Shown piece after piece: positions 46,420-49,096 of a stretch of DNA of 64,000 nucleotides. Position 1 is the first letter of the stretch; each line of letters begins with the position of its first letter. The notes beneath the pieces were generated by a model. That model saw only the letters and a list, made by a program, of their open reading frames with translations. It was not told where the DNA came from and made no database searches. Origin of the DNA: Streptomyces netropsis (GTDB lineage Bacteria > Actinomycetota > Actinomycetes > Streptomycetales > Streptomycetaceae); NCBI RefSeq assembly GCF_014203545.1, contig NZ_JACHJG010000004.1, positions 248,001-312,000 on the forward strand, given 5' to 3'. Made by a program: the position numbers and the translations under genes.

Positions 46420-46980
46420 TCAGACGGTCGGCCAGACGTCGGCGAGCATCTTCCGCGTGTCGGCGAGCAGTTGGGGCAGCACCTTGGTGTGGCCGATGAC
46501 GGGCAGGAAATTGGTGTCCCCGCCCCAGCGCGGCACGATGTGCTGGTGCAGGTGGGCGGCAATGCCGGCGCCGGCCACGCTGCCCTGGTTCATGCCGATG
46601 TTGAACCCGTGCGCCCCGGAGGCGGCCCGCAGGGCGGCCATGGCCCGCTTGGTGAACTCCGCGAGCTCCAGGGTCTCGGCGTCGTCGAGCTCCGTGTAAT
46701 CGGCGATGTGCCGGAAGGGGACGACCATGAGGTGCCCGCCGTTGTACGGATAGAGGTTGAGCACCGCGTACACGCGCTCACCTCGGGCGATGATCAGCCC
46801 GTCCTCGTCGCTCTTCTCGGGAATCGAGCAGAACGGACAGCCGTCGTCGGCACCGGGGCCGGTCGGCTTGTTCTCACCCTGGATGTACGCCATCCGGTGG
46901 GGCGTCCACAGGCGCTGGAACGCGTCCGGCGTCCCGACTCCGATCTGCTGTTCCGGCTCAGTCGTCATGTTGAGCAGCAT
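46420..46980 (-). CDS. HIT family hydrolase
   Basis: HIT proteins split nucleoside phosphates or dinucleotides; the active site is the triad HxHxH, here HLHQHIVPRW near residue 150. The 186-residue protein also has the N-terminal FCSIPEKSDEDGLIIARGE and NLYPYNGGHLMVVPFRH. The ATG at 46980 is close to GGGGA; a second ATG at 46968 (MTTEPEQQIGVG) is also possible. The gene lies downstream of thrS with a terminator and the mini-array between, and precedes pgsA-type genes in other actinobacteria. Confidence 0.93.
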   Translation of the reverse strand: MLLNMTTEPEQQIGVGTPDAFQRLWTPHRMAYIQGENKPTGPGADDGCPFCSIPEKSDEDGLIIARGERVYAVLNLYPYNGGHLMVVPFRHIADYTELDDAETLELAEFTKRAMAALRAASGAHGFNIGMNQGSVAGAGIAAHLHQHIVPRWGGDTNFLPVIGHTKVLPQLLADTRKMLADVWPTV

Positions 46981-47006: not shown

Positions 47007-47034
47007 GAGGGGCGGCCCTGATGGGCCGCCCCTC
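47007..47034 (-). terminator. Terminator of thrS and the mini-array
   Basis: A perfect 12-bp stem, 47007-47018 with 47023-47034, with the 4-nt loop TGAT on the plus strand. Its upstream arm overlaps the last four bases of the degenerate repeat (47031-47059). Confidence 0.88.
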
Positions 47035-47118
47035 TCACCCCGCCGGTCGCGGAGAACACAATCCAGCTGGACTTCAAACTACCGGAGCGCGGCTCACCCC
47101 CGCCTGCGCGGGGAACGC
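47031..47118 (-). CRISPR. Two-repeat type I-E-like mini-array in the thrS 3' UTR
   Basis: Read on the minus strand, in the same sense as thrS, an intact 29-nt repeat (47118-47090) has stem CCCCGC, loop GCAG, stem GCGGGG and the 3' handle GTGAGCCG, the form of type I-E repeats of actinobacteria. A 30-nt spacer follows (47089-47060). A second, degenerate 29-nt repeat (47059-47031) is 21/29 identical in position, including GTGTTC-like start and TGAG near the end. It keeps a 6-bp hairpin CTCCGC-GCGGGG with one T-G pair. The first repeat begins one base after the thrS stop. No cas gene is in the window. Confidence 0.72.
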
Positions 47119-47119
47119 G

Positions 47120-49096
47120 TCACACCTGGACGCGACGCTCTACGACATCAACGAGCTTCGCGATCGCCTCGGCACGGGGAATCCCGTTCTCCTGCGACCC
47201 GTCCCGGTAGCGGAAGGACACCGTACCCGCGGCCATGTCCTCGTCACCGACGATGATCATGAAAGGCACCTTGGACTTCTGAGCGTTTCGGATCTTCTTC
47301 TGCATCCGGTCCGAGGAGGCGTCGACCTCGACCCGCAGACCCTTCTTCTTCGCCTCGGCGGCGAACTCCTGCAGGTACTCGACGTGCCCGTCACCGATCG
47401 GGATGCCGACCGCCTGCACCGGAGCCAGCCACGCCGGGAACGCGCCCGCGTAGTGCTCCAGCAGAACGGCGAAGAACCTTTCGATGCTGCCGAACAGCGC
47501 ACGGTGGATCATGACCGGCTGCTGCTTGGTGCCATCGGCCGCCGTGTACTCGAGATCGAACCTCTGCGGGAGGTTGAAGTCGAGCTGGATGGTCGACATC
47601 TGCCACGTACGGCCAATCGCGTCCTTGGCCTGCACCGAGATCTTCGGGCCGTAGAAGGCAGCGCCGCCCGGGTCCATGACGAGCTCCAGGCCCTGCTTCT
47701 CCGCGACCTTGCGCAGGGTCTCGGTGGCCTCGGTCCAGTTCTCGTCGGAGCCGACGAACTTGGTCTCGTCCTTGGTGGACAGCTCCAGGTAGAAGTCGGT
47801 CAGACCGTAGTCGCGGAGCAGGTCCAGGACGAAGGTCAGCGTCGTGTCGAGCTCCTCCGCCATCTGCTCGCGGGTGCAGTAGATGTGCGCGTCGTCCTGC
47901 GTGAAGCCACGGGCGCGGGTCAGGCCGTGGACCACACCCGACTTCTCGTAGCGGTACACGGTCCCGAACTCGAACAGACGCAGCGGCAGCTCACGGTACG
48001 AACGCCCGCGCGCATCGAAGATCAGGTTGTGCATCGGGCAGTTCATGGGCTTGAGGTAGTAGTCCGTGCCCGCGTCGAGCTGCATGGGGGGGTACATGCC
48101 GTCGGCGTACCAGTCCAGGTGGCCGCTCTTCTCGAAGAGCGCGCCCTTGGTGGCGTGCGGGGTGTAGACGAACTCGTAGCCGTTCTCCTCGTGCTTGCGG
48201 CGCGAGTAGTCCTCCATCACCCGGCGGATGATGCCGCCGCGCGGGTGGAAGACCGCGAGACCCGAGCCGATCTCATCCGGGATGGAGAAGAGGTCCAGCT
48301 CGGAACCGAGCCTGCGGTGGTCGCGCTTCTCGGCCTCGGCGAGGAACTCCAGGTGCGCCTTCAGCTCGTCCTTCGTCGGCCACGCGGTGCCGTAGATGCG
48401 CTGCAACATGGGGTTCTTCTCGCTGCCGCGCCAGTAGGCCGCCGCGTTGCGCATGAGCTTGAACGCCGGGATGAACCGGGTGGTCGGCAGGTGCGGGCCG
48501 CGGCAGAGGTCGCTCCAGCACGTCTCGCCGGTCTTCGGGTCCAGGTTGTCGTAGATGGTGAGCTCGCCGGCGCCCACCTCGACGTCCGCGCCGTCCTCGT
48601 GCGAGGCGGAGCCCTTGAGGCCGATCAGCTCCAGCTTGTAGGGCTCGTCGGCGAGCTCCTCGCGGGCGGCCTCGTCGGTCACCACACGGCGGGAGAACTT
48701 CTGGCCCCGCTTCTGGATCTCCTGCATCTTCTTCTCGATGGCCTTGAGGTCATCGGGGTGGAAGGGCTTCTCGACGTCGAAGTCGTAGTAGAAGCCGTCC
48801 TTGACCGGCGGGCCGATGCCCAGCTTGGCCTCGGGGAAGAGCTCCTGCACGGCCTGGGCCATGACGTGCGCCGTCGAGTGGCGCAGGATGTTGAGGCCGT
48901 CCTCGGAGGAGATCTCGACGGGCTCGACCTCGTCGCCGTCGGCGACCGCGTACGCGAGGTCCTTCAGCTCGCCCGCGACACGGGCGGCGACGATGGTGCG
49001 CTCTCCGGCGAACAGGTCGGCGGCCGTAGTGCCCGTCGTCACCACGCGCTCTTCCCGCTCGGAATCGCGTTGGATGATCACACGGACGTCTGACAC
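47120..49096 (-). CDS. thrS: Threonyl-tRNA synthetase
   Basis: This 658-residue class II synthetase charges tRNA-Thr. It has an N-terminal TGS domain and the editing domain with [16 protein letters not shown] near residue 80. The catalytic core holds [10 protein letters not shown] (zinc Cys), [20 protein letters not shown] (motif 2), [10 protein letters not shown] and [18 protein letters not shown] (motif 3). The C-terminal anticodon domain ends ERRVQV. I503-R512, [10 protein letters not shown], is the segment matched by the adjacent mini-array spacer. The GTG at 49096 has AGGAGAG upstream. Its 3' UTR carries the CRISPR-like repeats. Confidence 0.97.
47562..47591 (+). other. Protospacer-like segment within thrS matching the mini-array spacer
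   Basis: These 30 bases on the plus strand match the spacer at 24 of 30 positions. Mismatches are at spacer positions 2, 5, 9, 12, 21 and 30, counted from the PAM side; positions 13-29 have a single mismatch. The three bases immediately 5' are AAC, close to the AAG-type PAM of type I-E systems. The segment encodes IQLDF-LP-R of ThrRS. Confidence 0.6.

Follow-up and report, generated by a model that had tools for sequence, protein, structure and literature searches.

The stretch of DNA analysed here (the window) comprises 64,000 nucleotides (nt) of Streptomyces netropsis (contig NZ_JACHJG010000004.1, positions 248,001 to 312,000) and contains a small array of clustered regularly interspaced short palindromic repeats (CRISPR) in the 3´ untranslated region (UTR) of thrS, the gene for threonyl-tRNA synthetase (ThrS). 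Read along the minus strand, the TGA of thrS (47122-47120) is followed by a single C, an intact repeat (R1), a spacer, a degenerate repeat (R2) and a terminator hairpin (Table 1). R1 is a palindromic repeat with a GTGANCCG-like handle, as in arrays of the type I-E class. A preliminary description of the locus had placed a type I-E-like repeat 1 nt past the thrS stop, in the direction of thrS and inside its 3´ UTR, together with a degenerate second repeat that keeps a 6-base-pair (bp) hairpin. All of this is borne out, with every part on the minus strand and an R2 stem of CTCCGC/GCGGGG that includes one G-U pair. The spacer was put at 30 nt in that description and measures 32 nt. The pairing of an intact with a degenerate repeat in a stand-alone unit is, as was also pointed out there, that of CRISPR RNAs (crRNAs) of the CreR/CreA type.

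Table 1. Features at the thrS array of S. netropsis (window positions)
Feature	Position	Strand	Basis or remark
thrS, threonyl-tRNA synthetase, carrier allele, 658 aa, GTG start	47120..49096	-	open reading frame and tblastn
R1, intact type I-E-like repeat GCGTTCCCCGCGCAGGCGGGGGTGAGCCG, 29 nt	47090..47118	-	sequence; same class as the cas-adjacent I-E repeats of other carriers
5´ handle GTGAGCCG, the final 8 nt of R1	47097-47090	-	sequence
Spacer (guide) CGCTCCGGTAGTTTGAAGTCCAGCTGGATTGT, 32 nt	47058..47089	-	matches to thrS
R2, degenerate repeat GTTCTCCGCGACCGGCGGGGTGAGAGG, 6-bp stem kept	about 47031..47057	-	stem comparison
Intrinsic-terminator-like hairpin GAGGGGCGGCCC-ATCA-GGGCCGCCCCTC, predicted end of the thrS-array transcript	47007..47034	-	sequence
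Carrier's own protospacer within thrS, predicted to be disabled	47562..47593	+	adjoining AAC at 47559-47561
HIT-family gene 3´ of thrS	46420..46980	-	list of open reading frames; homologue is the target of the G130/L210 array and probably of L220

Judged by its letters, the spacer is a piece of the threonyl-tRNA synthetase gene, because its complement, read on the plus strand, encodes the ThrS peptide TIQLDFKLPER and because 26 of its 32 nt are identical to the carrier's own thrS; the guide is thus antisense. A partial match had been foreseen in the preliminary description, with no mention of thrS as its origin. The agreement with the thrS of other streptomycetes reaches 28-29 of 32 nt, next to AAG or AAC as the protospacer adjacent motif (PAM). 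The same relation was found in a set of 38 distinct full arrays at the thrS site in Streptomyces and Kitasatospora; regular-expression detection missed most arrays, and the 38 were selected by visual inspection of the printed sequence, with a constant offset for reading. Nearly all interpretable spacers in this set are thrS segments that encode a ThrS peptide, in sense (e.g., KIRxAxKxKV) or antisense. One spacer derives from the HIT gene (L210 in genome G130, peptide FIPVVGHMKV), probably also a second (L220), and a few, such as L274, are not readable. The thrS and HIT guide sites fall at about 12 different places and are preceded in array-less genomes by AAG or AAC. An AAN PAM has been reported for the type I-E system of S. 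avermitilis (PMC12231136), and spacers of 32-33 nt with a protospacer next to such a PAM are as in type I-E arrays. Second thrS paralogues exist (51% and 40-42% identity) and were considered as targets, but contain no matching sites. No plasmid- or phage-borne thrS resembling the streptomycete housekeeping gene was found, the best copy on a Streptomyces plasmid being 52% identical, and the targets are therefore most likely chromosomal.

The array is one of many. The 3´ end of thrS was located in 150 Streptomyces genomes and the downstream sequence was read in 130; seven of these have a full repeat-spacer-repeat behind thrS, and in further genomes a single or decayed repeat hairpin is present. 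The layout of a thrS stop followed by a repeat was recovered by pattern search from 41 of 394 Streptomyces genomes; 49 named contigs also have it, among them those of S. klenkii, S. griseocarneus, S. olivoreticuli, S. sparsogenes and Kitasatospora xanthocidica. The repeat core TCCCCGYNNNNGCGGGGNTGRNCCG was present in 23 of 80 Streptomyces genomes and its reversed form gave 0 matches (genomes picked for lacking Cas7e), and the occurrence of the repeat is not due to chance. The stems of both R1 and R2 are kept. In R2, 36 of 39 arrays have one of at least 6 bp, against 24% of control windows, and some compensatory pairs occur, such as CTCCGC/GCGGAG in L240 and CCCCGT/ACGGGG in L205. The preliminary description had made its case depend on repeats of this sequence in related genomes and on a conserved second hairpin, and both are found. 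In carriers G130, G116, G014, G380, G317 and G218, I-E arrays with a 61-bp period and the same class of repeat adjoin cas7e. The terminator hairpin comes after R2 in carriers and directly after thrS in array-less genomes, and carriers share a thrS 3´ end of the form ...LVDVVERR(V/I)QV with a GTG-TGA finish. Six carriers (L013, L197, L199, L225, L240 and L244) have a near-alike thrS and terminator and the same array site with very different thrS guides; the site is therefore stable and the guide turns over. On a tree of the thrS body, full arrays are scattered: their 36 carriers require 25 changes, where shuffling gives 33 on average and 28 at the least, a patchiness that is compatible with biased spread or protection of the locus and is not proof of either.

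A key property of the carriers is the state of the matching site in their own thrS. In S. netropsis, this site is mismatched at guide positions 2, 5, 9, 12, 21 and 30, two of them in the seed; at the same site, 90 of 108 array-less thrS genes have no seed mismatch and 73 of 108 have AAG. At the site DAIGR, all 6 carriers have CGC or CGG at the PAM versus AAG in 81 of 108 array-less genes, at DLCRG three carriers have CGT, CGC and CGC (AAG in 106 of 108), and the carrier at NPMLQ has CGC, whereas 105 of 108 array-less genes have AAG. At DPEKF it is the seed that differs, with 4-5 mismatches in 4 of 4 carriers and 0 or 1 in most array-less genomes. Overall, the own site is broken, by conversion of a PAM lysine codon AAG to an arginine codon CGN or by a changed seed, in 20 of 30 testable carriers, where 4.3 would be expected. 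When each carrier is compared with its nearest array-less relative, as judged by the rest of thrS, the own site is broken and that of the relative intact in 19 cases and the reverse in none (p=4e-6), and the own match is worse in 27 cases and better in 2. Some own sites are near-perfect except for the PAM (L227, 30/32 with CGC; L208, 29/32 with CGT). Among the conserved lysines of ThrS, significant losses in carriers occur at 195, 491, 123 and 227, which are the PAM lysines of guide sites, and further at K607, inside the site KIR, and at the C-terminal K647/K650; most other lysines are unchanged. The change at K647/K650 is an exception, in that it belongs to the shared C-terminal end of carriers and not to a guide PAM. 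Loss of lysine, mostly to arginine, is enriched also at some PAM sites of guides that the carriers in question do not now hold, which suggests past exposure, as expected if guides changed over time. Through loss of PAM or seed, then, the thrS of a carrier would usually be resistant to its own guide.

The guides themselves carry a second signature. In Cascade, every sixth base of the crRNA is flipped out, and the seed consists of positions 1-5 and 7-8 (PMC5904413). After correction for target diversity, the mismatch frequency between guides and array-less thrS is 0.34 at positions 6, 12, 18, 24 and 30 versus 0.05 elsewhere, and each of the 12 target-site groups shows this excess. For the 26 sense guides, which are not all independent, the sixth positions can be set against other third-codon positions, with mismatch frequencies of 0.54 versus 0.27 (p=3e-5); antisense guides show 0.52 versus 0.15. 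Drift is thus mainly at flipped-out positions, from which it follows that the guides have been kept able to pair with the thrS of array-less strains; they look as if selected for this pairing.

A guide able to pair with non-carrier thrS next to an immune thrS would have the anatomy of a toxin and its antidote. We consider it probable (roughly 60%) that the thrS unit is a type I-E crRNA gene pared down to repeat, spacer and repeat, which travels on the thrS mRNA, is linked to a guide-proof thrS, and constitutes a natural cleave-and-rescue element of a toxin-antidote and homing-like kind. As in such a design, the guide matches the array-less allele of thrS, an essential gene, and the linked copy is usually broken in PAM or seed. 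Cas6e of the host would cut the thrS 3´ UTR at both repeat stems and Cascade would load the guide, after which Cascade-Cas3 would attack thrS, or the HIT gene next to it, at any site that retains an AAG/AAC PAM and the seed, that is, in non-carrier alleles. A cell may come to contain these when streptomycetes exchange chromosomal DNA. Owing to a PAM lysine codon changed from AAG to CGN or to an altered seed, the linked thrS would be spared and the cell would survive; the guide would be the toxin, and the immune essential gene the antidote. Destruction of non-carrier alleles could in this way spread the unit or protect its locus. Primed adaptation from the attacked locus may further supply replacement guides that again derive from thrS or HIT.

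Several observations weigh against the cleave-and-rescue reading. The preliminary description had looked to a type I-E cas operon in the same genome, and neither Cas7e nor Cas6e was found in the S. netropsis genome; the array there is therefore now an orphan. Among searched carriers of an array or relic, 17 of 32 have Cas7e, which is near the genus background (64 of 150). About 10 of the 30 own sites retain the PAM as well as the seed, and their differences are mainly distal mismatches (site KIR, one antisense site, L206 and L197), and in Streptomyces huasconensis (L238), the guide equals the carrier's own thrS at 28 of 32 nt with an AAG PAM and an intact seed. The 30 comparisons of own site and relative draw on 17 distinct nearest relatives, and arrays that share a site may share ancestry. 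The scatter of arrays could also reflect repeated loss or recombination inside thrS; sliding identity between carriers whose guides are alike revealed no clear recombination tract. The anatomy of the unit and the selection on its guides are read from sequence, from which processing, cleavage and spread are inferred.

Alternative explanations start from the same data. The targets, the 19:0 loss of own sites and the 6-nt pattern would be just as expected if the spacers were immune memories of thrS-HIT DNA conjugated in from other streptomycetes, kept by thrS since no allele other than a linked, immune one would be safe; the host would benefit in that its locus is not replaced and recombination meets a barrier. 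Haloarchaea are known to acquire spacers against chromosomal genes of relatives during inter-species mating. Taken alone, such memories leave unexplained that the array lies directly behind its own target gene, and that spacers turn over at a fixed location by one essential gene instead of being spread over ordinary arrays, and we regard this explanation as rather unlikely. The near-perfect own sites that lack only the PAM, and the many carriers without cas genes, are in line with a scar of autoimmunity, in which adaptation, primed or naive, added a self-thrS spacer at a hairpin resembling a repeat, the survivors escaped through PAM or seed changes, and the array is now a fossil. A fossil should decay evenly, yet the mismatches are largely at flipped-out positions in all site groups, and the recurrence of one site with many different thrS guides would be unexpected; this makes a scar distinctly improbable.

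The preliminary description had leaned towards regulation of the CreR kind, for which a crRNA would lead Cascade to the carrier's own thrS or HIT gene and cause repression without cleavage in a feedback loop. Binding without cleavage is conceivable at the own sites that have distal mismatches only, since AAG and five seed nt are enough for binding by Cascade in E. coli (PMC5904413), and CreA works through an 11-bp seed match (PMC10989794). A PAM and seed match to a controlled site in the same cell is, however, not what was found: own PAM or seed is lost in the 20 broken sites, including that of S. netropsis, the opposite of what a repressor needs. The targets are moreover scattered through the coding region of thrS (or lie in HIT), on both strands and at no cas promoter, many carriers are without cas genes, and the complementarity, with its 6-nt pattern, is to the thrS of array-less strains. 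Regulation of the carrier's own thrS is thus unlikely for most arrays, and we hold out very little prospect for this role as an account of the unit. Least credible, to the point of being extremely unlikely, is a guide of a CRISPR-associated transposon (CAST) or a solitary-repeat anti-CRISPR (Racr) decoy. Delocalised crRNAs of CAST adjoin conserved genes and have partly matching spacers (PMC11656645), I-E loci associated with TnsB/TnsC are reported in Streptomycetaceae (PMC12231136), and solitary repeats exist in phages (PMC10651486). At thrS, there is no transposon and no insertion at a fixed distance from the target, as the HIT gene or the terminator comes directly after; with targets all along thrS, insertion would break the gene, and a transposon has no reason to destroy its own protospacer. 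A Racr decoy, for its part, needs no spacer that matches a target.

Repeat units resembling the putative cleave-and-rescue element at thrS occur at other core genes. In array-less genomes, CTGAAG followed by TCTTTGGAGTGACCCGTGGC precedes rpmB, and in six genomes (G060, G051, G069, G055, G096 and G304), a repeat ends exactly at that AAG border. Since the repeat is inserted between AAG and protospacer, the guide would equal the empty site with an AAG PAM. Loci L276, L282, L286, L299, L300 and L324, in six genomes, have the repeat exactly between AAG and TCTTTGGAGTNACCCGTGGC ahead of rpmB, and some changes in the stem are compensatory. In S. netropsis and G060, the 3´ end of rpmB likewise has a repeat, behind which come GTCTCGC and the ancestral flank; in array-less strains, AAG again precedes. 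In S. netropsis, this is the second I-E repeat of the genome, outside the window and directly behind rpmB (L003/L275, G000:C18:98354-98430), and its guide equals the empty site, made up of the end of rpmB and the flank that ancestrally lay downstream; a third match to the repeat core lies at G000:C29:11694-11718. At sites other than thrS and rpmB, gene names were assigned by eye. A lone repeat is located between UbiD-like (mqnL-type) and UbiA-like genes at L329, L345 and L348 (R1 near 1500), where the guide repeats the last codons of the gene (EYGL stop) and AAG precedes within the gene. Among L327 (G035), L331 (G024) and L321 (G022), a mini-array that adjoins ffh has a spacer matching ffh at 22/32 with an AAA PAM, and mini-arrays that adjoin a cobN-like gene match it at 27/32 with AAG and, in another case, 20/32 with AAC; the target gene is again the neighbour of the array. 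Lone repeats are also found directly before rplV (L322 in G073) and upstream of clpC (L323, L338 and L344), the latter conserved in three genomes.

We would give even odds to the broader proposition of a natural RNA-guided cleave-and-rescue element, in which one-spacer I-E crRNA genes lie behind an essential gene, are linked to an immune allele and use Cascade-Cas3 of the host to eliminate non-carrier alleles when chromosomes are exchanged, in an arms race at PAM lysines with turnover of guides; the related repeats at rpmB, at mqnL and at further core genes would extend this to a general class of selfish guide genes. No published precedent for thrS mini-arrays, or for natural elements that combine a guide with an immune allele, was found in the open-licence literature. 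The suggestion in the preliminary description that a mini-array in a tRNA synthetase transcript is novel is in this respect supported. If true, the reading provides a natural, bacterial counterpart of engineered cleave-and-rescue drives that has no nuclease of its own, and gives a role to orphan CRISPR repeats, which are usually dismissed. It would link CRISPR with competition between alleles and with barriers between Streptomyces species, account for the directed Lys-to-Arg changes of a core enzyme through PAM escape, and make simple, testable predictions for many thrS-linked guides.

The thrS unit is reminiscent of several known systems. Spacers acquired in haloarchaeal matings match chromosomal housekeeping genes, as does a hisS spacer of Pelobacter (PMC6990116), also directed at a tRNA synthetase gene; both are part of ordinary arrays that are unlinked to an immune copy of the target. 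The mini-arrays of the archaeal viruses SPV1 and SPV2 borrow host Cas proteins against the DNA of a close relative (PMC6858448, PMC11656645), whereas the thrS unit is chromosomal, concerns one essential gene, and is linked to an immune allele. The delocalised crRNA of CAST shares the atypical repeats and the mismatched guides beside conserved genes (PMC11656645), but the thrS unit has no transposon, its targets are gene-wide, and its own target is lost. Racr elements of phages are likewise isolated repeats without cas genes (PMC10651486), but in thrS units, spacer and target are conserved. CreA and CreR of type I systems are similar in having a stand-alone repeat, spacer and degenerate repeat, a partial match and dependence on Cascade; they differ in that the presumed target of the thrS unit is non-carrier thrS or HIT, the own site is usually broken, and the unit is part of a housekeeping mRNA that is not cas-adjacent. 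Homing endonuclease genes and introns also recognize the allele that lacks them, and the likeness is closest at rpmB, where the insertion parts PAM from protospacer such that the carrier would be immune; here, by contrast, the guide is RNA, no nuclease is encoded, and homing of the repeat units is conjectural. Cleave-and-Rescue (ClvR) and other toxin-antidote gene drives are synthetic, and to our knowledge, the cleave-and-rescue design is otherwise known only as engineered. In ClvR, much as proposed for thrS, the guide is directed at an essential gene and is accompanied by a linked version of it that has been made resistant by recoding. The thrS unit would differ in being natural and bacterial, in using the type I-E Cascade-Cas3 of its host in place of a carried Cas9, and in having the resident thrS itself as the rescue.
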